Below, in pieces: positions 5,409 through 30,577 of a DNA stretch of 38,028 bases (positions are counted from its first letter, which is position 1; the number at the start of each line of letters is the position of its first letter). The DNA is from a virus: IMG/VR virus record IMGVR_UViG_3300048592_000291, positions 1-38,028 of that record, one strand, 5' to 3'. A program made the translations under genes and the position numbers. The notes under the pieces were generated by a model, which saw only the letters and a program-made list of their open reading frames with translations, was not told where the DNA came from and made no database searches.

Positions 5409-6986
5409 ATGGCGACGCGCACCGATAGTTTTGATCGTTCCGATTCGACGAGCCTGGGCGGCGATTGGGCCGAGGATTCCGGCGATTGGGCGATCGTATC
5501 GAACAATGTGCGCAACGGCACGACCGGCAGCAGCTACCGCAAACTGCGCTGGGTTGGCGCTGCGATGGATTCCAGCGATTACGCCGTTGAGGCGCCGTGC
5601 AGGTCAGGCAGCGATAGCCACGCCGTTGGACCGGCTGCACGCATGGCGGCCAGCAGCACGGTCACCTATTACGGGCTGGTCATTTTTGCCGGGTATGGCG
5701 CATACCTGGTTTACATCAACAACGGCGCCGAGACGGTGCTGGCGTCGTCCAGTGGATTGACGATCAGTTCCGGGACGACCTATACGCTGCGGCTAGAGGT
5801 CGAGGGCACGGCGATCCGTGGGTATGTAGACGGTACGCTGCGCGTTAGCGCCACGCACAGCGCATTGACCGCCGGGCCGCCGGGGCTGGCTGGGTATGGC
5901 GGCAACAACTCCGGCACGTATGCGACGCAATGGTCGGCGGCTGATTTGGGCGGCGGTGCATCGCAGATTGACGTGAGCGACACGGCGGCTGGGAGCGATG
6001 CGCTCAACCTGGCGGCGGCGCTGGGGCTGGCTGATGCGGGCAGCGGGGTCGATGCGCCGGGCAACCTGGCGGCGAGCCTGGCGCGCACGGATGCGGGCAG
6101 CGGGGTCGATGTGCTGGCGCAGGTGCTGGCGGCGCTGGGGCTGGCCGATGCGGGCAGCGGGGTCGATGTGCTGGGCAACCTGGCGGCGAGTGTGCCGGTA
6201 GGGGACAGTGGCAGCGGCGCTGATTCGCCCGGCGTGGTGGTGACGCTTTCCGTGAGCGATGCGGGCGGCGGGGTCGATGTGCTGGCGCTGCTGACCGAGG
6301 CGATCAAACAGGTGGCGGACAGTGGAGGCGGCGCCGATGCGGTGCTGCCGCCCGGCGTGGTGCTGGCGGTGGTGGACGCTGGCAGCGGCGCTGATTCGCC
6401 CGGTGTAATGGTGGCGCTCTCCGTGAGCGATGCGGGCAGCGCCGCCGAGTTGATCGCCGTGTTGGCGGCTGTGCTGGTGAGCGTGCTCGATGCGGGCAGC
6501 GCCGCCGAGGCGGTGACGGTTGGTGTAGCGCCGTTCGCCGTCGGGGACAGTGGCGGCGGCGTAGATGCGCCCGGCGTGGCGGTGACGCTCTCCGTGAGTG
6601 ATGCGGCGGTTGGCGACGATGCGCTGCTGACGGCGATGCTGGTGGCGGTGGCTGATGCTGCGGCTGCGGTGGATGGCGTCGGCTCGATTGCGGTGCACGC
6701 GCCGGTTTCGGATGTGGCGCAGGCGGCGCATGTGATCGGGGCGATTGCGGCGACGCTGGCCGTGGTGGATCTGGGCGCCGGCGTCGATGTGGCGATTGCG
6801 TTCGATGCGGCGCTGCGCATTGTGCGCGTCGATTTCAGCATCGCCCGGCGATCGGTGGCGTTTGCGTGGCTGGCGCGGTCGCTGACGTGCGGCTGGGCGG
6901 CGCGTGAAATTGAGTTTTCGATGGTGGGGCGGCCGGTTGCGTTCGGCTTCGCTCGCCGTGATGTGTCGTTTGCGTGGAACCGCTAG
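5409..6986 (+). CDS. Surface-type protein with lectin-like head and about 15 tandem 19-residue repeats
   Basis: Encodes 525 residues. Residues 1-180 look like a concanavalin/laminin-G-like beta-sandwich (TDSFDRSDSTSLGGDW at the start, YTLRLEVEGTAIRGYVDG near 125-142). Residues about 185-490 are a run of some 15 degenerate units of 17-20 residues built around VSDAGSGVD followed by a small hydrophobic stretch; the middle units are most regular and the last ones decay. The final 45 residues are rich in Arg, Phe and Trp. The repeats could form a beta-solenoid or extended stalk, with the lectin-like part binding a glycan. Location between head-connector genes suggests a capsid or neck decoration, but a tail fibre cannot be excluded. 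It begins four bases after the previous stop, without a clear ribosome-binding site. Function not known. Confidence 0.75.
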   Translation: MATRTDSFDRSDSTSLGGDWAEDSGDWAIVSNNVRNGTTGSSYRKLRWVGAAMDSSDYAVEAPCRSGSDSHAVGPAARMAASSTVTYYGLVIFAGYGAYLVYINNGAETVLASSSGLTISSGTTYTLRLEVEGTAIRGYVDGTLRVSATHSALTAGPPGLAGYGGNNSGTYATQWSAADLGGGASQIDVSDTAAGSDALNLAAALGLADAGSGVDAPGNLAASLARTDAGSGVDVLAQVLAALGLADAGSGVDVLGNLAASVPVGDSGSGADSPGVVVTLSVSDAGGGVDVLALLTEAIKQVADSGGGADAVLPPGVVLAVVDAGSGADSPGVMVALSVSDAGSAAELIAVLAAVLVSVLDAGSAAEAVTVGVAPFAVGDSGGGVDAPGVAVTLSVSDAAVGDDALLTAMLVAVADAAAAVDGVGSIAVHAPVSDVAQAAHVIGAIAATLAVVDLGAGVDVAIAFDAALRIVRVDFSIARRSVAFAWLARSLTCGWAAREIEFSMVGRPVAFGFARRDVSFAWNR

Positions 6987-7840: not shown

Positions 7841-8160
7841 TGATCCGGGCGGGCGATCTCAACGAGCAGGTCACGATCCAGGCGGCGACGGTCACGCGCG
7901 GCACGGCCAACGCCGAGGTCGTGAGCTGGTCCAGCGTTGCAATGGTTTGGGCGAAGATCGTCGAGCGTGGCGGCCGGGAGCCGCTGCTCGCCGACCGTCC
8001 GGTGATGGTCGTGGCCTACGAGGTGACGATCCGCGCCGGGGTCAACGTGACGCACAGCGACCGCTTGTTGTGGGGCGACAAGGTGTTGGCGATTGACACG
8101 GTGACGCCCCGTCGGGCGGAGGGGTCGATTGTGCTGCGCTGTATGGAGATTGAGATCTAG
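7840..8160 (+). CDS. Head closure / head-tail joining protein (SPP1 gp16-like)
   Basis: Encodes 106 residues. The opening MIRAGDLNEQVTIQAATVTR is very typical of the phage head-tail joining family, which forms the ring between the portal adaptor and the tail. WSSVAMVWAKIVERGGRE (about 30-47), the central YEVTIRAG and the LLWGDKVLAIDTVTPR segment complete the pattern. Length fits the family. It is followed by the second terminator-promoter cassette, so the head module ends here and the tail module is separately transcribed. Confidence 0.88.
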   Translation: MIRAGDLNEQVTIQAATVTRGTANAEVVSWSSVAMVWAKIVERGGREPLLADRPVMVVAYEVTIRAGVNVTHSDRLLWGDKVLAIDTVTPRRAEGSIVLRCMEIEI

Positions 8161-8183
8161 GGAGTTGCGAGGGGAGAGGCGAA

Positions 8184-8209
8184 CCCGGCCCATGGCGGCC
8201 GGGTTTTTT
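8184..8209 (+). terminator. Intrinsic terminator, cassette copy 2
   Basis: CCCGGCC (8184-8190) pairs with GGCCGGG (8197-8203), loop CATGGC, followed by TTTTTT (8204-8209). It separates head genes from tail genes. Confidence 0.85.
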
Positions 8210-8220
8210 GTTGCCTGCGA

Positions 8221-8248
8221 CTGGCAGTCCGAACGGGTGTGCTACGCT
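8221..8248 (+). promoter_or_regulatory. Promoter with extended -10, copy 2
   Basis: CTGGCA (8221-8226), 16-base spacer and TGC-TACGCT with the hexamer at 8243-8248, as in copy 1. The predicted first transcribed base is the A of the ATG at 8255, so the tail operon mRNA may be leaderless. Confidence 0.55.
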
Positions 8249-8254
8249 GGCGGC

Positions 8255-8749
8255 ATGGCGCGACGTGGACGGATGGCGGTGCGGGTGCGCATCGACGGGA
8301 TCAAGCAACTCGAGGAGCGGCTGACGACGGTTGGCCTGACGCTGCGCTCGCCGGCGGTGACGAGCGAGATCCAGCGCGGGGCCGATATCATGGCGGCCAG
8401 GGCGCAGGTCAAAGCGCCGAGTGACCTGGGCAATTTGCGGCGCGGCATCTACACGGCGAGCAAAGAGCGGCAGGGATTTGTGCAACTGACGCGCAAGGGG
8501 CGGCGGATCAATTCGGGGTTGCGCTATCCGCCACGACCGGGGCAAGTGGTGCTGGTGTCCAGCGTCTACTATTCGCTCTTCGTCGAGCGTGGACGCAAGC
8601 GCAACAGCAAGCGCGGCTACATGCGAGCGCGTCCCTATTTCCGGTCAGCGGTGCGCGAGAGCCAGCAGACGGCGACCGCTTTCATCCTGCGCAGGCTGGA
8701 GAGGCTGATTGCCGAGCGCTGGAATGCCGGGTGGGGGAAGGGTCGATGA
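8255..8749 (+). CDS. HK97 gp10-like tail completion protein
   Basis: Encodes 164 residues starting at the ATG of the repeated cassette. VRIDGIKQLEERL (9-21) at the start, the AKAPSDLGNLRRGIY-like segment (QVKAPSDLGNLRRGIYTA, 52-69), YYSLFVERGRK and the C-terminal ARPYFRSAVRESQ are all hallmarks of the HK97 gp10 family, which acts at the head-tail interface during tail completion. An ATG at 8273 would shorten it by six residues. The reading frame also continues upstream to an ATG in the terminator loop (8192), which I do not take as the start. Its stop overlaps the next ATG. Confidence 0.88.
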   Translation: MARRGRMAVRVRIDGIKQLEERLTTVGLTLRSPAVTSEIQRGADIMAARAQVKAPSDLGNLRRGIYTASKERQGFVQLTRKGRRINSGLRYPPRPGQVVLVSSVYYSLFVERGRKRNSKRGYMRARPYFRSAVRESQQTATAFILRRLERLIAERWNAGWGKGR

Positions 8750-9120
8750 TCGAATCCTCTGTGGTGGCTGTGCTGCTGGCCGATACGGACATAACCGACA
8801 TTGTCGGCGACCGCATCACGCCGGTGGCGGTGCGCCAGGCGGCGGATGTTCCGGCGATTACCTTCGCGCGGCAGGGCGGCAGCCGAGAATATACGTTCGG
8901 CGGCGGGGTGCAGGCGGATGTGACGATCTCCCTGACCTGCTGGGCGGCGACATGGCTGGTGGCGCGCAACGGCGCGGAGGCGATGCGGGCGGCGCTGGAT
9001 GCCTATCAGGGCGGTGACATCGCCGTGGCCAGCGTCACGGATGGGGCGGACTATTACGATCCGGAAGCGGATCTGTTCGGCTGCACGGTGATCGCAGCGG
9101 TCAACTATAGCGAGGTGTGA
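8746..9120 (+). CDS. Tail terminator / completion protein (DUF3168-like)
   Basis: Encodes 124 residues. The start MIESSVVAVLLADTDITDIVGDRITPVAV (read in two parts: MIESSVVAVLLADTDI, then TDIVGDRITPVAV) followed by ADVPAITFARQGG is the typical opening of the DUF3168/gp17-like tail completion proteins that cap the tail tube at the head side. LTCWAATWLVARNGAEAMRA fits the central helix. The ATGA overlap with the previous gene and the position between gp10-like and tail-tube genes agree. It ends just before GAGG that serves the next gene. Confidence 0.82.
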   Translation: MIESSVVAVLLADTDITDIVGDRITPVAVRQAADVPAITFARQGGSREYTFGGGVQADVTISLTCWAATWLVARNGAEAMRAALDAYQGGDIAVASVTDGADYYDPEADLFGCTVIAAVNYSEV

Positions 9121-9122
9121 CG

Positions 9123-9848
9123 ATGGGTGTAAAGGCGTACAACGGGCGGCTGCTGGTCGATGAGTTCGACTTTTCGCTCGACACGTTCTCGGCGACGCTG
9201 GAGAGCACTGCCGAGGCGCTGGAGAGTAGCAATTGGCAGAGTGCGGCCATGCAGTACCAGCCGGACGCGGCGAGCGGCTCGCTCTCCATGGTCGGCTACT
9301 ACACCGGCAACGATGCGGGCGACATCTACCAGGAGATCTACAGTCGCCTCGGCACGGAAACGGCCGCCTATGCGGCTTGGCTGCTCGATACGTCTGCGCT
9401 GGGCAATCCGGCCTACGTGGTCGATACGGCCTGGGGCGCAAGCGTGACCATCGATACGCCGGTCAACGACCTGCTGAAATTTTCCGGCAGCTTCGAGGGC
9501 GTGGTCTATGGCGGCGTGACGCTGCTTGATGGCGTGGCGTCGGCGACGGGCAACGGAACCACCGTCACGCTGCCGGGCGGCGGCACGACGGGCGGCCGGG
9601 CGTACCTGTTCGTGCGCACCATCACCGGCACGGCGACCAATGCGATCGTTTCGGTGGAATGCGACTCGGTGGTCGGCATGACGACGCCGACGGACAAAGG
9701 ATCGATCACCTTCTCGGATGTGGGTGTCTATACGCTGACCATCTCCGGGACGGTGGAAACATATGTACGGGTAACGATCGATGCGCTGGGCGGGGCGACC
9801 AACTTCACGGCCGCGCTGATTCTGTGCGTCGATGATGTGACGATGTAA
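9123..9848 (+). CDS. Tail-tube-like protein with C-terminal extra domain
   Basis: Encodes 241 residues. ATG 9123 is favoured over an upstream in-frame GTG at 9117 because GAGG lies seven bases before it. Residues 1-130 contain VDEFDFSLDTFSATLEST and SNWQSAAMQYQPDAASGSL, which resemble the corresponding segments of the next gene, so the two are paralogues. Such proteins form the phage tail tube. The last 100 residues (TVTLPGGGTTGGRAYLFVR, TDKGSITFSDVGVYTLTISG) look like an added Ig-like beta domain that would point outward from the tube. Which of the two paralogues is the main tube protein cannot be decided from sequence. Confidence 0.75.
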   Translation: MGVKAYNGRLLVDEFDFSLDTFSATLESTAEALESSNWQSAAMQYQPDAASGSLSMVGYYTGNDAGDIYQEIYSRLGTETAAYAAWLLDTSALGNPAYVVDTAWGASVTIDTPVNDLLKFSGSFEGVVYGGVTLLDGVASATGNGTTVTLPGGGTTGGRAYLFVRTITGTATNAIVSVECDSVVGMTTPTDKGSITFSDVGVYTLTISGTVETYVRVTIDALGGATNFTAALILCVDDVTM

Positions 9849-9861
9849 TCAGGAGGATTCA

Positions 9862-10278
9862 ATGGCACGCACCAAGGCATTGCAAAATGTCGGCATCACC
9901 TACGACGGCGACAATTTGCAGTCTCATCTCAACACGGCATCGTTTAGCGCCACGGTCGAGGCAATCGAATCGACCACGTTCGCCAGTTCGGCCATGGAGC
10001 AGGGGCCGGGCGCACCGGCGTTCTCGGTTGACATTGGCGGGCCGTGGACAAAGACGCTCGATGATTTTCTGCGGCCGGACGTGCTGACGCCGCCGACCAC
10101 ACTCAAGACGCTCGTCTATTTTGTTGGGGCGTCGGGCAGCCGCGTGACCTACACATGGACGGGCAGCGCCACGGTCGGGGCGTTTATCAGCAACTACGCA
10201 ATCAACGCCGACAATCCCATGGGCGACATCACGTGGTCGGGCACGCTGACAATCTCCGGTTCGCCGGTCATCTCCTAG
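9862..10278 (+). CDS. Probable major tail tube protein
   Basis: Encodes 138 residues after a very strong AGGAGG (five bases before ATG), consistent with high expression. SHLNTASFSATVEAIESTTF and ASSAMEQGPGAPAFSVDIGG match the tube-like segments of the upstream paralogue, and WTKTLDDFLRPDVLTPP plus GDITWSGTLTISGSPV at the end fit a small tail tube protein. It sits immediately before the tail chaperone pair, the expected place for the major tail protein. The start signal and size make it the best candidate for the abundant tube subunit. Confidence 0.75.
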   Translation: MARTKALQNVGITYDGDNLQSHLNTASFSATVEAIESTTFASSAMEQGPGAPAFSVDIGGPWTKTLDDFLRPDVLTPPTTLKTLVYFVGASGSRVTYTWTGSATVGAFISNYAINADNPMGDITWSGTLTISGSPVIS

Positions 10279-24398: not shown

Positions 24399-25022
24399 AT
24401 GGCTATTCCGATGACGATCTATCGAGTGAGGCTGACGTTTACGGAACCGCTGCTGGGCAGCACGCCGGATGCGAAAGCGTATTCGGCTTATGTAGCACAG
24501 CAGGCTATCGACAACGGCAAGTATGTCAATGACGAAATGCAGACGCTGGTGGAGCAGCCACGCGGCAAGACCGGGTTCCATCGAGACAGTGCAACGCCGG
24601 TGTTCTACGACTACGTGTTGAAGGGCTTCATGAAAGAGGCGTGCACCGCCTTGCGCCGCATGGACGGCACAGTAAGCAAAAGTTTGACCGCTCACAAAAC
24701 CAAGATCGACCAGCTCGTGATGGCCGAGCCACGGCGCATTGCGTTGAGATTACGAAAGCCAACGACCGATTTGGAGCGGCCGCTGCGCGCCGACACACCA
24801 CAGGGGCCGAGGGTAACGCTGGTCAGCAGCACGGCGGCCAGCGAAGGGACGACGATGGAGTTCACCGTCAAGGTGCTTGGTGTCGGCGTGATCAGTGAGG
24901 CGATGCTGCGGGAGTGGTTCGAGTACGGGCAATTCTCCGGGCTGGGTCAGTGGCGCAGCGGGGGGTATGGCCGTTTTGTTGCAGAAATTACGGCAGTGCC
25001 TGACGGCACGGAAGCCCGGTGA
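24399..25022 (+). CDS. RAMP-like conserved phage protein next to the G-ladder DNA
   Basis: Encodes 207 residues. The frame extends upstream to 24285 but that part overlaps the membrane peptide and is unlike protein, so the start is ATG 24399 with GGAGG 12 bases before. The N-terminal strand IYRVRLTFTEPLLG, the central PVFYDYVLKGFMKEACTALRR, LRLRKPTTDLERPLRADTPQ and the C-terminal FTVKVLGVG, EWFEYGQFSG and GLGQWRSGGYGRF (181-193) match, from memory, a conserved uncharacterised family in siphoviruses and prophages of Firmicutes. The beta-alpha-beta layout with a final glycine-rich loop resembles RAMP-fold (Cas5/6/7-like) RNA-binding proteins; this is structural inference, not proof. The stop codon is followed at once by the periodic G-ladder (25025-25227), suggesting the protein acts on that DNA or its RNA. 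Confidence 0.7.
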   Translation: MAIPMTIYRVRLTFTEPLLGSTPDAKAYSAYVAQQAIDNGKYVNDEMQTLVEQPRGKTGFHRDSATPVFYDYVLKGFMKEACTALRRMDGTVSKSLTAHKTKIDQLVMAEPRRIALRLRKPTTDLERPLRADTPQGPRVTLVSSTAASEGTTMEFTVKVLGVGVISEAMLREWFEYGQFSGLGQWRSGGYGRFVAEITAVPDGTEAR

Positions 25023-25024
25023 GG

Positions 25025-25227
25025 GCGTGGTATAGCCGCGTTATGGCAGTGCACCGCAGTGCTTCGCAGTGTAGCGGTGAAGTTTAGCCAGGTTGGGCTT
25101 GGGCGCTGTTTCGTTAGGTATGGCACAGGCGATGTACAGTATTGCGAAACGGGGGCAAGGTTCAGATGCGCAGAGGCAGGGTTGTGTTCAGCGATGTTGT
25201 GTCCAGCAGTGGCAAAGCGCAGCAATG
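25025..25227 (+). other. Phased G-ladder: G about every 5.2 nt over 202 bp, non-coding
   Basis: Starting at 25025, a G stands at 39 of 40 ladder positions, with 32 steps of five and seven steps of six bases (mean 5.18). The one miss is at 25149. In 31 of 39 cases the next base is C or T, and at most six-base steps the ladder base is part of GG (25045-25046, 25076-25077, 25102-25103, 25128-25129, 25154-25155, 25180-25181, 25211-25212). Overall G content is about 39%. The unit bases between the Gs do not repeat. The ladder begins three bases after the stop of the RAMP-like gene and ends in the ATG of the next gene. No plausible protein is encoded. The mean spacing is half of a B-DNA turn; function unknown. 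Confidence 0.9.
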
Positions 25228-25368
25228 AGTGATCTGTATCGACGCTATCGGCGCTACCCGCTGATCCGCCGGCGACGAATGTGGCCGAGGGTCAGCGGCG
25301 ATACGCTGTGCTGGCTGGCCGGGCTGGGCTGGATCGTGGCGCTGTTGGCGCTGGCGTGGATGAGGTAG
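25225..25368 (+). CDS. Basic single-pass membrane peptide
   Basis: Encodes 47 residues. The first 22 residues are strongly basic and aromatic (MSDLYRRYRRYPLIRRRRMW) and are followed by one hydrophobic segment (TLCWLAGLGWIVALLALAWM). The product should be a membrane-anchored peptide with a positively charged, possibly nucleic-acid-binding, cytoplasmic end. There is no Shine-Dalgarno sequence because the G-ladder runs into the start codon. It is separated by six bases from the next gene. Being directly beside the ladder, it may belong with the RAMP-like gene. Family unknown. Confidence 0.55.
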   Translation: MSDLYRRYRRYPLIRRRRMWPRVSGDTLCWLAGLGWIVALLALAWMR

Positions 25369-25374
25369 GACGGA

Positions 25375-26223
25375 ATGAACGACTTGATCGCAATGTTGGA
25401 TGAAGCAGATTTGAGCGCAAACGTGTGGCGGACAGCCGTGCGGCTGGCACGGCTCGCCAACGGGTTTGGGGCGGTGGTGCTGACCTACGAGCAGTTGCGC
25501 GCCATCGTCGGCACGGAGTCAGATGGGACAGCGCGGGCGCACCTGATCAAACTGCATGACGCTGGCGTGTTGTGGTATCGCCGCAACGCCGTCGTCAGCG
25601 TGACCTTTTATACGCCGCAGACACGTGCACGGCGCGCGCCAGACGCGCAAATTGATCACGACGTGATCACCGATGAGGATGACGAGCGCGCGCCAGACGC
25701 GCAAATTGATCACGAGACGCGCGCATTGACGGAAAACGACGACACCGAGCGCGCGCCAGACGATCAAATTGATCACGACACGCGCACGGCGCGCGCCACA
25801 CGCGCGAAACGCGCGCCTGACGATCACTATAAGGTAGGTAGGTTGGTAGGTAGGCAGGTAGATCTAAAACCTACCAACCTACCTGGGGGGTCTGGGGGGA
25901 AACCGCTAACGGCGGATCAGCAGCGCACGCTGGCGTTTTTGACCGACGAGGAATTTGGCATGGACGCCGCAACCGCTGAGGGGATTGCACGCCGCCATGC
26001 GTTTGAGCAGGTAACAGCACATGCGTTCGCCGTGCTGGATGACATCCGGGCGGGCAAGGTGCGAGGAGTGTATGTACTCGCCTCTCGGCTGAGCCGCGGC
26101 GGGATGCCGCAGATCACACCGGCTGATCGGGAGACGTCGCTATGGCTGCGGCATTGCGACGAGGCGGACGATCTGCGCAGTCGCTATATCCCGGACGGAT
26201 ACGAAGGCGTGATTCTGGGATGA
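25375..26223 (+). CDS. Replication initiator-like protein with embedded origin
   Basis: Encodes 282 residues. Residues 1-85 form a winged-helix domain (AMLDEADLSANVWRTAVRLA, VVLTYEQLRAIVGTESDGT, HLIKLHDAGVLWYRR), the arrangement of lambda O-like and other phage replication initiators. Residues about 85-185 form a low-complexity linker with three copies of RAPDxQIDH, created at DNA level by 30-bp repeats, and then a GR-, P- and G-rich part made by a 16-bp inverted repeat. The C-terminal 95 residues (FLTDEEFGMDAATAEGIARR, GVYVLASRLSRGGMPQ) form a second small helical domain. Iterons inside the initiator gene are how lambdoid origins are organised, so oriC-like activity is likely. Replication role is inferred from this layout. 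Confidence 0.75.
   Translation: MNDLIAMLDEADLSANVWRTAVRLARLANGFGAVVLTYEQLRAIVGTESDGTARAHLIKLHDAGVLWYRRNAVVSVTFYTPQTRARRAPDAQIDHDVITDEDDERAPDAQIDHETRALTENDDTERAPDDQIDHDTRTARATRAKRAPDDHYKVGRLVGRQVDLKPTNLPGGSGGKPLTADQQRTLAFLTDEEFGMDAATAEGIARRHAFEQVTAHAFAVLDDIRAGKVRGVYVLASRLSRGGMPQITPADRETSLWLRHCDEADDLRSRYIPDGYEGVILG
25632..25661 (+). repeat. Iteron 1 of the putative origin
   Basis: First of three 30-bp direct repeats (GCGCGCGCC, AGACGCGCAA, ATTGATCACGA in order). It begins 54 bp before copy 2. The core TGATCA is palindromic, and just downstream GATCACG-A-CGTGATC forms an inverted repeat (25654-25668). Confidence 0.8.
25686..25715 (+). repeat. Iteron 2 of the putative origin
   Basis: Identical to iteron 1 over 30 bases. 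Spacing to copies 1 and 3 is 54 and 63 bp, both multiples of three, so the reading frame is kept. Confidence 0.8.
25749..25778 (+). repeat. Iteron 3 of the putative origin
   Basis: Differs from iterons 1 and 2 only in a two-base change (CGCGC to CGATC). Two shorter, degenerate copies of the GC-rich part follow at about 25790-25830. Confidence 0.75.
25836..25899 (+). other. 16-bp stem-loop and G-tracts beside the iterons
   Basis: AGGTAGGTTGGTAGGT (25836-25851) pairs perfectly with its reverse complement at 25869-25884 around a 17-base loop. Two runs of six G separated by TCT follow (25885-25899). The left arm continues as a series of GGTA units. The block could act in origin melting or as a strand-specific structure; it encodes a linker in the initiator. 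Confidence 0.75.
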
Positions 26224-26263: not shown

Positions 26264-27499
26264 GTGAGACAACCAACGCCAATAAACATTTTGGATGAAC
26301 TGATGCCAGCCCAAAGCGAAACGACTGAACTACGCTCCGGGCTGCGGTGGGATTACAGCAAGCTGGGTGACGCTGCCAGCGCGGTGATCGAGCACACGAT
26401 TGAGATCAAGCGCAATGAGCGCCGCGCCAACGAAGCGGTGGTCGAGGCTGGCCGTCATCTGATCGCCGTGAAGGAGAGCCTGAGTCACGGGCAGTGGGGC
26501 GATTGGCTGGAAACGGAATTCGCTATGAGTGATTCGACAGCGCAGACAATGATGAACATTGCTCGGCGTTTTGGGGCAAATTCCCAACCGGTTGGGAATT
26601 TGAGCTATAGCGTGCTTGGGCTGCTGGCGTCTCCGTCGGTTCCGGAAGCGGCGGTGAATGAGGTAGTTCAGCGGTCGCAGGCCGGCGACGATGTGACGAA
26701 GGCACAGGCCAGAGCAGTGATCGACCAGCACCGGTCCAAGAAGGCGCCGATCCGCCACGATGCAACCCTGCCGGCGCCGGGCGTGTACTGGACGCCGTTC
26801 GGACCGCAGCCGAAGATTCCGATTGAGGAGGTGTCGGCGCTGCACAATCTGGCGAGTCAGAAGGAACAGCGGGTTGATGCGCCGCCGGCGGAGAGTGGGA
26901 GAGAGGGAGAGGGGGGGACGCCAACCGGCAAGCTACTGACGGAGTGGACTGACGAGGACTGGGCGGCGTATGCAGAGAAAGAGGCCGATGACGCTCAAGT
27001 GCTGCCGATGCATGTCGCAGGGTTTGAGATGCCGGACGATTTGATCGGCACGTGGTCGCCGCGCTTTGATGGGGGTAGCGTTTACCTGGTGGATGCGCTG
27101 CGCAATCGTTCGACCGAGACAGTGGCGCTCGACGAGCTTGACGAACTGTTTGCGCGTATCAGACTGGCACTTGGGTATGGAGCCAAACCGATTGTGGTCG
27201 ATGGCGACCGCCCGCTGCCGGAGTGGGCCGTGACGCAGCCGGACGAGATCGCCGAGGTGCTGACGCCTGACGCCGGGACGGAGGCGATCCCGGACATGCG
27301 GATCGCAAGGATGGCACGGCTGATCAACGTGTACAGCCAGACGATCACGACCTTTGACGAGTACGGCAACCTGACCGGCTCGTTTACGGAAACGCTGCCA
27401 GCGCAGCGGGAGCTAGAGAAGTTGATCAAACATCTCCGGCGGGAGATGGCTCTGTTGGAAGGTCAGCCGGTCGAGGACGGTTGGGGGGTGCTGTCATGA
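26264..27499 (+). CDS. DUF3102-type phage protein
   Basis: Encodes 411 residues from a GTG start with GGGAGG five bases upstream. Residues about 30-130 match the DUF3102 pattern: RRANEAVVEAGRHLIAVKES, LSHGQWGDWLETEFAMSDST and TAQTMMNIARRFG, a helical domain found in phage and plasmid proteins and related in style to ParB-like or KorB-like DNA-binding helices. The middle (about 190-230) is a Gly/Glu-rich linker, and the second half has a separate domain (HVAGFEMPDDLIGTWSPRFD) ending in a helical segment (LPAQRELEKLIKHLRREMAL). The family is usually annotated as unknown. A role in replication or DNA maintenance fits the neighbours. Confidence 0.8.
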   Translation: MRQPTPINILDELMPAQSETTELRSGLRWDYSKLGDAASAVIEHTIEIKRNERRANEAVVEAGRHLIAVKESLSHGQWGDWLETEFAMSDSTAQTMMNIARRFGANSQPVGNLSYSVLGLLASPSVPEAAVNEVVQRSQAGDDVTKAQARAVIDQHRSKKAPIRHDATLPAPGVYWTPFGPQPKIPIEEVSALHNLASQKEQRVDAPPAESGREGEGGTPTGKLLTEWTDEDWAAYAEKEADDAQVLPMHVAGFEMPDDLIGTWSPRFDGGSVYLVDALRNRSTETVALDELDELFARIRLALGYGAKPIVVDGDRPLPEWAVTQPDEIAEVLTPDAGTEAIPDMRIARMARLINVYSQTITTFDEYGNLTGSFTETLPAQRELEKLIKHLRREMALLEGQPVEDGWGVLS

Positions 27500-27873
27500 A
27501 CCCCGACAAGCTGGCGGAAGTGCTGGACTTCCTGCGAGAACTAAGCGCAACCGGGCCGGTGACGCGGGTGCGCTACCAGGTCGAACGGCGGGCAGGCCTG
27601 CCGCACCCGACGCAGTTGGCTGAGCACGGCCATTCGTGGAACGGGCTGTTGCTGCTGGCCGGGCTGCCGGTGCGCTACCGGGCGAATAAGGTCGATTGGA
27701 CAGAAGGCCGGGAGGAGGAGATCGAGGTGATGATGCAGGATCGGGAACTCAACAATTGGTTCCGGGAAGGTTTGCCGGTGGTGGAGTCGAGCGCACGCAC
27801 TGAGGTGCGGCGGGCGATTTTGCCGGGTGGACGGGCGGTGCGGATTGAGTACCAGATTGTGAGCCTGCGATGA
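27496..27873 (+). CDS. Unknown HTH-like small protein
   Basis: Encodes 125 residues. The ATG at 27496 overlaps the upstream stop as ATGA and a GGGGGG run lies ten bases before. The N-terminal 60 residues (KLAEVLDFLRELSATGPVTR, YQVERRAGLPHPTQLAEHGH, WNGLLLLAGLPVRYR) have the feel of a helix-turn-helix domain. The C-terminal half is strand-rich. It lies directly before and overlaps the methyltransferase gene, so it could be its regulator or cofactor, but I cannot recognise the family. Confidence 0.6.
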   Translation: MNPDKLAEVLDFLRELSATGPVTRVRYQVERRAGLPHPTQLAEHGHSWNGLLLLAGLPVRYRANKVDWTEGREEEIEVMMQDRELNNWFREGLPVVESSARTEVRRAILPGGRAVRIEYQIVSLR

Positions 27874-28862
27874 GATTGCTCAGTTTGTTCGCCGGTATCG
27901 GCGGCTTTGATCTGGCATTCGAGCGCGCCGGGTGCGCAGTCGTGGCGCAGGTGGAGAGCGATCCGCAGTGCCGATCTGTGTTGGCGGAGCACTGGCCGAA
28001 CGTGGTGCAGTTTGACGATGTGCGCAACTATCACGCCCGGCTGGGTGAGGCCGAGGTCATCGTCGGCGGGTTTCCCTGCCAGGATTTGAGCGTAGCGGGC
28101 AAGCGGGCCGGGTTCACTGGCAATCGTTCTAGCCTGTTTTTTGAGATGGTGAGGGTTATTGATGAATGTAAACCTGCTTATGTCGTTTGGGAGAATGTTC
28201 CCGGATTGCTCTCTTCCAACAACGGCAAAGACTTTGCAAGCGTCCTCATGGCGCTGGACGCAATCGGGTATCACGGAGCGTGGACAATGCTTGATGCTCA
28301 ATTCTTTGGCCTTGCACAGCGCCGACGGCGCGTATTCGGTGTGTTCGCTTGCGGAGGTGGTGCAGCCGGACGCGCCGCCGAAATATTATCTTTCCGCTCG
28401 CGCATGTCGTGGAATCCTAAGGCGGGCGGAGAGGCGGGGGAAACCGTTGCCTATGCGCTTGCGGCAGGCGCTGGAGGTAGCAAATTCGGCAGCGGGCGAC
28501 AGGGGCAAGACACGCTGATCGCCAACCCGCTGGGCAGCCACCATAGCAGGCAGGATTTGGACAACGATACCTGGATCACTTTTGAGTCTCGTTACGCCCG
28601 CAACGGGAGAGGAGCGCCGGACTCCATCGTATCGCCATTGAAGGCGCAGAGCGGCGGAACGGGTAAGGGTGATGCCGCTCCGCTGGTGGCGCAATCCGGC
28701 GTGCGACGCCTGACGCCAACCAAGTGCGAGCGGTTGCAGGGGTTCCCGGATGACTGGACAGCCAGCCAGAGCGACAGCGCCCGCTATCGGATGCTCGGCA
28801 ACGCCGTCGCCGTACCGGTTGTCGAATGGATTGCCCGGCGCTTGATGGAGGTGGCAGCGTGA
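27870..28862 (+). CDS. DNA (cytosine-5) methyltransferase
   Basis: Encodes 330 residues. It transfers a methyl group from S-adenosylmethionine to C5 of cytosine in DNA. All signature motifs are present: motif I SLFAGIGGFDLA (5-16) for AdoMet, motif IV GGFPCQDLSVAGKRAG with catalytic Cys70, motif VI ENVPGLL (108-114), motif VIII QRRRRVF (150-156) and motif X RMLGNAVAVPVV near the end. The target recognition region (about 165-280) is Gly/Ser-rich and unusual. No cognate restriction enzyme is nearby, so it is an orphan phage methylase, probably protecting phage DNA from host restriction. It is coupled by overlaps to genes on both sides. Confidence 0.95.
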   Translation: MRLLSLFAGIGGFDLAFERAGCAVVAQVESDPQCRSVLAEHWPNVVQFDDVRNYHARLGEAEVIVGGFPCQDLSVAGKRAGFTGNRSSLFFEMVRVIDECKPAYVVWENVPGLLSSNNGKDFASVLMALDAIGYHGAWTMLDAQFFGLAQRRRRVFGVFACGGGAAGRAAEILSFRSRMSWNPKAGGEAGETVAYALAAGAGGSKFGSGRQGQDTLIANPLGSHHSRQDLDNDTWITFESRYARNGRGAPDSIVSPLKAQSGGTGKGDAAPLVAQSGVRRLTPTKCERLQGFPDDWTASQSDSARYRMLGNAVAVPVVEWIARRLMEVAA

Positions 28863-29158
28863 ACGATTGGTTGCTGTTCGTGATCGCTCTGCTGGTTCCA
28901 CTGAGCGGCGTGCTGACGTGGATGTGGCTGGATGCGGAGCGAGAGTGCAAGCGCCAGCAGCGGCGGGCAGAGGAGGCCGAGTGCTGGCTGCAACTGGCCG
29001 ACGAAGAGGTCGAGGCCGTGCGGCGGAGGTTGGCGGACGTGGAGCGCCGTCACGGGAATTTGCAGGCGGTGTACGCGCAGCTCACGCGGCGGCTGTTGTC
29101 GAGGAATTATTTTGAGATTGAGCAACATGTGCGGCGCAAACGCAGCGCCGACCAATAG
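28859..29158 (+). CDS. Membrane-anchored coiled-coil protein, i-spanin-like architecture
   Basis: Encodes 99 residues from a GTG that overlaps the methyltransferase stop, with GGAGG just upstream. Residues 4-24 form an N-terminal membrane segment (DWLLFVIALLVPLSGVLTWM) and the rest is a charged helix with heptad-like spacing (AEEAECWLQLADEEVEAVRR). This layout is shared by inner-membrane spanins (Rz) but also by many unrelated phage proteins, and no o-spanin lipoprotein partner is visible. The gene ends before three successive hairpins. Confidence 0.55.
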   Translation: MNDWLLFVIALLVPLSGVLTWMWLDAERECKRQQRRAEEAECWLQLADEEVEAVRRRLADVERRHGNLQAVYAQLTRRLLSRNYFEIEQHVRRKRSADQ

Positions 29159-29278: not shown

Positions 29279-30577
29279 ATGCTGGAGAAACAATTGACGC
29301 AGGAGATCACGATCATCAACAACACCCTCTCGGCGTTCGGCGTGGACGCCGGAACCAAACCGGCATGGACGACGGTCGCCGGATCGTCGTTCGTGGCGTA
29401 TGGCCTGCGCACTGGCCCGGCGCAGCGAATCAGCGACGTGCAACGCCTGCTCCCGGAGTTGTCGGAGCGATTGAGCGCAGCACGCCGCAGGCCCACGCCG
29501 GTGCGCCTGCGTGAAATGCCGCTTGCGCTGGAAGTGGCGCACCCGTCACCCGCACCGCTGGATTGGCGTAATGCCACCATGCGCATTGGCGGCGGGCGCA
29601 TGGTGGCCGGGCGCATCTACGGCGCAGCGAGTGCGCACGACCTGGTGATCGACCTGGCGCAGAAGCCGCATGTGTTGGTGGCCGGCACGACCGGCAGCGG
29701 CAAGAGCACCATGCTGCGCATGATGCTATCGTCGCTGGCCTACAACGCCGATCCGGATGCGCTGCGGCTGGTGCTGGTGGATCTGAAAAACGAGGACCTG
29801 GTACCGTTCGCCACGTTGCCACACGTCGAATCGGCGGCGTGGCTAGCCGACGACGCCCGGCACGTCGTGACCGGCGTGCACGTCGAGTTGCAGCGGCGGG
29901 TGCTGGCCGGCGTGGGTGAGTGGCCGCGGCTGGTGCTGGTGATCGATGAGCTGGCGCAACTGGAAACGACGGCGCTTGACCTGCTCTCCTCGATCCTGGC
30001 GATTGGCCGCAGCAAGCGGGTGCACGTGATCGCAGCCACGCAGCATCCAGCCGTGCGGCTGATCGGCGACAAGGCGAACTACAGCGTGCGATTAGTGGGG
30101 CAAGTCATGGACGCACAGACGGCCGCACTTGCAACCGGGCGCAAGGGTTCCGGGGCGGAGTTGCTGCCGGGTGCGGGTGCGTTTCTCTACGTGGACGGCT
30201 CACAGATCGAGCGGCTGCAGGCCTACAACCTCAACGCCGAGGCGGTCGCCGGGCTGGTGCGGGTGGTGCGGGAAAAGTGGTGCGAAAGTGGTGCGTCCGC
30301 ACCGGTGCGCACTGGTGCGCCAGAGGTAGAAGTGCTGCCGGCGCCACAAACGAGCGTACCCGCACCAGTGCGCACCGGTGTGACGTTTCCGCTGCCACGC
30401 CGCGCACCGACGCCAGCCGAAGCGGTAGAAATACGCCGGATGCGTGCGGAGTTGGGAAGTCTTAATCAGTTGATCGTCGCTGTGTACGGAAGCAAATCAT
30501 CTGATACGCATCGATGGGTGAGCGAGGCGCTGTCACAGCCTGAAGTAGCGCCGATTTTGAAACTAGGAGCGAGATAA
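29279..30577 (+). CDS. FtsK/SpoIIIE-type DNA translocase
   Basis: Encodes 432 residues. Walker A AGTTGSGKST (135-144), Walker B VLVIDEL (219-225) and the following AAATQHPA-like sensor (VIAATQHPAVRLIGDKAN) place it in the FtsK/HerA ATPase family, which pumps double-stranded DNA. There is no N-terminal membrane domain, unlike cellular FtsK, and the last 60 residues (PTPAEAVEIRRMRAELGSLN and YGSKSSDTHRWVSEALSQP) look like a small winged-helix domain comparable to the FtsK gamma domain that reads DNA direction. Phages and integrative plasmids carry such translocases for replication, partitioning or transfer. A 22-bp inverted repeat lies within its own gene at 30298-30382. GGAG stands upstream of the ATG. 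Confidence 0.88.
   Translation: MLEKQLTQEITIINNTLSAFGVDAGTKPAWTTVAGSSFVAYGLRTGPAQRISDVQRLLPELSERLSAARRRPTPVRLREMPLALEVAHPSPAPLDWRNATMRIGGGRMVAGRIYGAASAHDLVIDLAQKPHVLVAGTTGSGKSTMLRMMLSSLAYNADPDALRLVLVDLKNEDLVPFATLPHVESAAWLADDARHVVTGVHVELQRRVLAGVGEWPRLVLVIDELAQLETTALDLLSSILAIGRSKRVHVIAATQHPAVRLIGDKANYSVRLVGQVMDAQTAALATGRKGSGAELLPGAGAFLYVDGSQIERLQAYNLNAEAVAGLVRVVREKWCESGASAPVRTGAPEVEVLPAPQTSVPAPVRTGVTFPLPRRAPTPAEAVEIRRMRAELGSLNQLIVAVYGSKSSDTHRWVSEALSQPEVAPILKLGAR
30298..30382. repeat. 22-bp inverted repeat inside the translocase gene
   Basis: Bases 30298-30319 and 30361-30382 are reverse complements with one mismatch, 41 bp apart. Each arm contains TGCGCA-type and CACCGGTG-type palindromes. The sites encode part of the Pro-rich linker. 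They may be the recognition site of the translocase or of a regulator; inferred. Confidence 0.6.

Follow-up and report, generated by a model that had tools for sequence, protein, structure and literature searches.

A stretch of phage DNA of 38,028 bases, an IMG/VR virus record that was analysed at its full length (the window), very probably carries a VIPR locus composed of a vipr gene and, directly behind it, a guide-RNA array for which a reading in contiguous triplets is suggested. The membership of the locus in the VIPR system is firm, because its putative RAMP protein is linked to the Vipr of Escherichia phage SUSP1 by phrog_4652 and by hhalign and because 103 of 107 evaluable relatives have the array paired with the gene; the triplet code is inferred from statistics. 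VIPR was first described in a 2026 preprint as a phage-encoded RAMP protein (Vipr) with RNAs of alternating GGY/NN pentanucleotides (PMC13142463). According to its main text, the guide binds double-stranded DNA via the NN bases, one target base being skipped, and represses competing phages. The type II examples given there are SUSP1 and a Pseudomonas fulva prophage, whose vrRNAs have 9-16 units and a structured 3′ tail, and an accessory gene, vap, is called typical of VIPR, not universal (PMC13142463).

The G ladder between two genes

The array was recognized initially as a ladder of G residues. An earlier note on this DNA had reported G at 39 of 40 successive positions from 25025 to 25227, and both the coordinates and the count hold: the best path with steps of 5 or 6 bases through 25001-25250 has 39 Gs, and equal-composition shuffles fall short of it, the maximum being 36 of 40 in 1,000 mononucleotide and 1,000 dinucleotide shuffles allowed the same steps. 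The raw count is by itself only moderately special and not decisive, because the steps of 5 or 6 are freely chosen and other, G-rich coding stretches of the window get as far as 37 of 40 when their steps are chosen likewise. The Fourier spectrum of G, which the note had proposed as a check, has peaks at 2.6 nt (power 23) and 5.2 nt (17). A ladder HMM trained only on the ladders of relatives, with the window left out, finds a sole strong ladder in the 38,028 bases, at 25025-25231 with a score of 38.6, the next scores being 14.9 on the plus strand and 10.7 on the minus strand. The regularity of the ladder is real.

Other descriptions in the note were also accurate. The base after the ladder G is C or T in 95% of the window units, and the ladder fills the gap between a stop and a start codon, beginning directly past the TGA at 25020-25022 and ending with the G of the ATG at 25225-25227. 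That it is neither coding nor a tandem repeat is borne out as well, Tandem Repeats Finder reporting no repeat array there. Rfam and tRNA scans of the window gave no matches, neither a sigma-70-like promoter nor a plus-strand terminator was found near the ladder, and the predicted fold of the ladder RNA is no stronger than that of shuffled sequence. The features of the locus and some others of the window are listed in Table 1.

Table 1. Features of the VIPR locus and side observations elsewhere in the window
Feature	Position	Strand	Remarks
vipr homologue, predicted Cas7-like RAMP protein	24399-25022	+	207 codons; C-terminal glycine-rich loop GLGQWRSGGYGRF
G ladder, putative guide-RNA (vrRNA) array	25025-25227	+	40 G-Y-N-N-N units, of which seven have a further G at the end and a length of 6 nt
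6-nt unit GTTATG, putative end of word 1 (units 1-4)	25040-25045	+	HMM parse; boundary role from join statistics
Putative word 2	25046-25076	+	six units; decoded AGTACCAGTTTCAGTAGC; ends GTAGCG; HMM parse
Putative word 3	25077-25102	+	decoded GAATTACAGTGGTTG; ends GCTTGG; HMM parse
Putative word 4	25103-25128	+	decoded GCTTTCTAGATGACA; ends GCACAG; HMM parse
Putative word 5	25129-25154	+	decoded GATACAATTGAAGGG; ends ACGGGG (sole unit without the ladder G); HMM parse
Putative word 6	25155-25175	+	decoded AAGTCATGCAGA; ends GCAGAG; HMM parse
Putative word 7	25176-25211	+	seven units; decoded AGGTGTTCAGATTGTCCAAGT; ends GCAGTG; HMM parse
Last units	25212-25227	+	final G belongs to the ATG of the next gene; HMM parse
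Large ORF	5409-6986		57-bp tandem repeats (about three copies, 6005-6217); repeated ...DAGSGVDVLA... motif
ORF past the ladder	25375-26223		degenerate RAPD-x-QIDHD repeat at least three times in the translation; no Pfam or PHROG match
ORF with DUF3102 domain	26264-27499		upstream of the methyltransferase
C5-cytosine DNA methyltransferase	27870-28862		
FtsK/SpoIIIE-like ORF	29279-30577		

A predicted RAMP protein related to Vipr

The gene in front of the ladder matches no Pfam family. By tblastn, homologues of 38-43% identity were found in four human-gut phage contigs, in three of which the gene is directly followed by a similar ladder, and a profile search added another 33 loci from contigs of GTDB and 153 or more from IMG/VR, 80 of the latter being fetched for analysis. 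An AlphaFold model of the product, made from a 73-sequence alignment (pLDDT 86.8), supersedes a single-sequence prediction (pLDDT 40.7). The best matches of the model in a Foldseek search of the PDB are the type VII effector Cas7 and Csm3-type subunits of the Csm complex (probability 1.00, best E 7.9e-9, TM-scores of about 0.5-0.6), and the C-terminal glycine-rich loop has sequence matches to Csm4 and Cas7. Because the modelled fold and the loop sequence both lead to this group, the product is judged to be a RAMP protein.

Its only match among PHROGs is to phrog_4652, over the full length and weak (E 0.0076); SUSP1 Vipr is a member of the same PHROG (E 1.4e-96). Direct alignment of the two proteins by hhalign covers 166-172 columns with pair E-values of 2e-4 to 3e-5 and a probability of 49-75%; judged by such profile comparison, the homology is remote. 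What is found here is what VIPR is recognized by: a phage-encoded RAMP homologue with an RRM core and a glycine loop. The earlier note had supposed that, in RNA, the ladder would place one G for each subunit of a filament with a five-base footprint, and this guess fits, since the upstream gene encodes a predicted Cas7-like RAMP protein homologous to Vipr, a binder of pentanucleotide-repeat RNAs.

Ladders of the family

Do relatives of the gene have the same ladder? This check, also proposed in the note, was made on 107 evaluable family members after removal of identical copies: a ladder on the same strand adjoins the gene in 103 of them (downstream in 68, upstream in 25 and on both sides in 10) and is missing in four, in agreement with the earlier view that it is under selection. 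Reverse-strand controls, the reverse complements of the flanks, mostly score low (top score 34). Whole contigs totalling 2.1 Mb yielded 55 ladders, and with the exception of a few weak ones these share the strand of vipr and are within about 1 kb of it. Ladders upstream of vipr (L057, L058, L063, L069, L070, L072 and about 20 other loci) have the same unit, period and orientation as the downstream ones. No accessory gene is conserved among the neighbours of 108 loci: besides vipr, each real-looking cluster of neighbour genes is present in at most 34 of them, an SSB-like cluster in 18. No cas operon was noticed among the window ORFs.

The make-up of the unit was derived from 78 distinct downstream ladders with 7,569 units. 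A unit consists of G (92%), then C or A (C or T in the window) and three variable bases, so that the consensus across ladders is G-Y/A-N-N-N. A sixth base, which is G in 96% of cases, is present in 16% of units, mostly as GCAANG. The six-base steps described in the window are a real trait of the family, recurring every five to seven units: 68.7% of the intervals between 6-nt units in these ladders have this length, versus about 21% if they were random. The mean step, 5.18 in the window and 5.163 (sd 0.024) in the family, comes from discrete 6-nt units recurring among 5-nt units, without any DNA helix pitch. Throughout the ladders, both the 6-nt unit (GCAANG) and the next one (GCA..) are biased to A, and no other units conserve the ladder G as well; these two units may be a mark of register or end rather than guide. 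The ladders range from 14 to 259 units, and their ends vary among relatives, with no common 3′ tail.

The content of the ladders turns over rapidly. L002 and L003, the vipr genes of which are 89% identical in DNA, share hardly any ladder units. L047 and L049 have identical vipr genes, and the array of L049 is that of L047 minus exactly 64 units, with the register kept. The content is therefore hypervariable in a constant frame, as expected of guides.

Reading of the units

The earlier note had let the other three bases of each unit vary freely. They appear instead to carry information, as there are genome-like correlations across units. In a join test, joint frequencies of unit positions (the variable bases being positions 2 to 4) were compared by score with those of genomic 4-mers at gaps of 0 to 6, the null being permutations that keep the units of each ladder and their place relative to 6-nt units. 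When positions 3 and 4 are joined to positions 2 and 3 of the next unit, from which they are separated in the RNA by the fixed G-Y, gap 0 is best, with z 5.6 against 2.4 for the next gap in the downstream ladders and 2.9 against 0.7 in a separate set of 35 upstream ladders. The join of positions 3 and 4 to the same positions of the next unit peaks at gap 1, as contiguity predicts (z 5.1 downstream and 3.3 upstream), and a control in reversed order gives no gap-0 signal. Taking each ladder as one observation, gap 0 has t = 6.7 and the other gaps at most 2.1, with 81 of 111 ladders positive, and removal of a GC-rich cluster changes this result little. Junction by junction between successive units, gap 0 is at or near the top (z 1.9 to 3.7); after a 6-nt unit, no gap of 0-12 fits genomic DNA. 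Position 4 correlates in a genome-like manner with position 2 (distance 1) and position 4 (distance 3) of the next unit, more strongly than the joins of NN pairs do.

These statistics suggest that this branch reads DNA targets as uninterrupted NNN triplets. Because gap 0 fits between units and no join is seen after a 6-nt unit, we infer that the triplets are grouped into words, usually of five to seven units with about 18 target bases each, that are closed by the extra G of the 6-nt unit. Among the decoded triplets there is no clear avoidance of stop codons, and testing with a coding model gave an ambiguous result. Overall, the VIPR branch of gut, rumen and other phages rather probably uses a contiguous triplet code in which 6-nt units punctuate words of about 18 bases, a ladder of 40-260 units being a library of short guides for one protein.

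Shared words and searches for targets

A decoded 15-mer, GAATGGCAGGCAAAC, is common to three unrelated ladders: the upstream one of L079 and those of L010 and L011. L010 carries it in another triplet phase, and its units are therefore different. In four runs with shuffled ladders no match scored as high. Under looser criteria (score of at least 14) there were two different-phase matches, versus a mean of 0.1 in shuffles; other such matches, with lower scores, did not exceed their frequency in shuffles. Similarities of another kind were also observed. The decoded words ATACCTGTGACGAAGCTGTTGGAA, GTATCTGTGACAAAGCTGTTGAAG and GTATCTGTGGGGAAGCCGTTAAAA, at units 7 and 15 of L068 and unit 11 of L102, are alike with several differences at third triplet positions; copies that have diverged, or guides against alleles of a single gene, may account for this. 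L092 has an identical 24-base decoded word twice in one ladder (units 7 and 30), the first 20 bases of which have no exact match in IMG/VR.

The only exact match of 21 bases, sought after the word of L010 had been singled out, is between this word and the IMG/VR contig L252; it falls in the gene (8024-9916, minus strand) for a protein of 630 residues that has a Cro/C1-type HTH. The region HECVHWDLH ... WMEWQANALTPRIQMP of this protein resembles by eye an ImmA/IrrE-like lysogeny regulator, Pfam reporting only the HTH. A set of 300 genomes from the family of the host does not contain the 21-mer, and the match is a lead, not a demonstrated target. Word 2 of the window has 11 exact matches in IMG/VR, ten of these being antisense, in codon frame and coding for ATETGT; it is apparently a common codon string of tail proteins and only a weak lead. 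No exact IMG/VR match was found for three other words of 20-21 bases, word 7 of the window and words of L011 and L092, or for a gapped pattern.

In 2.8 Mb of related phage contigs nothing exceeded unit-shuffled controls with two or three read positions and several skips, nor when offsets at 6-nt units were allowed or the units beside them ignored; at the level of words there was a slight, non-decisive excess of 15-base matches. Comparison of the concatenated decoded triplets with 50,697 phages by blastn and tblastn gave nothing convincing. A 27/30 match in a host gene that looks to be of mannitol-dehydrogenase type, found in 300 genomes of one host's family, was judged to be chance: about 0.16 such matches are expected, and it crosses a word boundary. 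In all these searches no natural target was established for the window ladder or any other.

Relation to known systems

The window locus resembles VIPR type II in that a small phage RAMP gene stands beside same-strand pentanucleotide RNA units with a fixed G, a pyrimidine and a hypervariable remainder, and in that the proteins are homologous. In the SUSP1 genome (KT454805), the RAMP gene (complement of 28474-29061), a small neighbour and GGTNN ladders were located by inspection, and these ladders, read directly, have strict 5-nt steps. Unlike those of type II, the units of the present family are G-Y/A-N-N-N (G-Y-N-N-N in the window) without a second fixed G, so that a consensus related to GGY is found rather than GGY in the strict sense, and 6-nt punctuating units occur about every 31 nt. 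Arrays of the family have 14-259 units, that of the window 40 continuous ones, in place of 9-16; the family has neither a conserved 3′ tail nor a conserved vap gene; and the statistics favour contiguous NNN triplets over NN with a one-base skip. Related consensus sequences and long arrays are also mentioned in the main text of the preprint for other VIPR types ('staggered arrays with overlapping vrRNAs' and hammerhead arrays; PMC13142463). The present branch may thus be identical with one of its seven types, which are detailed in its supplement and were compared here through its main text. New here are the G-Y/A-N-N-N units, arrays of up to 259 units, the lack of a conserved accessory gene and the triplet-like joins in 111 ladders, all of which may already stand in that supplement.

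The Cas7/Csm3 backbone of type VII and type III CRISPR complexes is similar in its fold, its glycine-rich loop and its filament on guide RNA. It differs in having a 6-nt instead of a 5-nt periodicity, and neither CRISPR repeats nor a cas operon was seen at the window locus, CRISPR-Cas being characterized by identical repeats with unique spacers and a cas operon. In the assembly origin of tobacco mosaic virus, G at every third base sets the register of the protein. The window ladder is like it in having G at the footprint spacing of a protein; the viral origin holds no guide information, and its protein is unrelated.

Alternative explanations

A VIPR locus might also be read by the published rule, in which only positions 2 and 3 pair, one base is skipped, position 4 is unconstrained and 6-nt units are structural; we consider this possible, though unlikely. 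It is the rule given for type II of the same family in the main text of the preprint (PMC13142463) and likewise advances by three target bases per unit, and the join of positions 2 and 3 to the next 2 and 3 is positive at gap 1 in the downstream set (z 2.9). However, gap 1 does not stand out for this NN join among the upstream ladders, ladder-wise the join spreads over gaps 0-2 (t 2.4, 2.7 and 3.4), and the stronger genome-like correlations of position 4 described above speak against an unconstrained position. A structural RNA scaffold, coated as a filament by the Cas7-like protein, with G as register and the other bases devoid of target information, would account for a fixed G with a variable remainder and for ladders of up to 259 units, but it is improbable in view of genome-like correlations across units that are not adjacent in the RNA, the rapid turnover of content and the homology to a protein reported to use NN as guide (PMC13142463).

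Even less credible is an element acting as DNA, that is, a site phased by half helical turns for a DNA-bending or recombination protein, such as a RecT-like annealing protein whose footprint is five bases. Such a site would suit the mean step of 5.18, which the earlier note had equated with half a turn of B-form DNA, and exonuclease, RecT-like or SSB-like genes were read among the ORFs near the loci of some relatives (e.g., L002 and L005). Nevertheless, in relatives the strand of the Gs is that of the gene, and these flanks score far lower when reverse-complemented; the pitch arises from discrete 6-nt units, about one in six, every 5-7 units, and SUSP1 has strict 5-nt steps, so that the half-turn interpretation is unsupported; and the neighbour clusters, SSB-like ones included, are too sparse among the 108 loci. 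Chance in a G-rich intergenic stretch, for which only the coding stretches with 37 of 40 could be adduced, is refuted by the shuffles, the ladder HMM and the 103 of 107 relatives.

A model and its meaning

The preferred reading, a vipr gene with its guide-RNA array, can be put as a working model beside what was observed in this analysis, namely the homology, the fold, the conserved pairing of gene and ladder, the hypervariable content in constant register and the statistics of the code. The ladder would be transcribed together with vipr into a guide RNA. A comparison with published VIPR and Class 1 CRISPR complexes suggests that one Vipr subunit would grip each unit, holding the fixed G-Y and presenting the remaining bases to the target DNA, and the complex would bind and repress genes of competing phages. 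All three N would be read as contiguous target bases until a 6-nt unit ends a word of about six units (about 18 bases), and the 40-unit ladder of the window would hold about eight short guides.

VIPR has been proposed as the ancestor of CRISPR. If the present branch does read uninterrupted triplets in punctuated words, it would sit between the gapped code of VIPR and the continuous spacer of CRISPR. It would also be a one-protein system that packs many guides into a short piece of DNA, and phage genomes could be used to list its natural targets directly.
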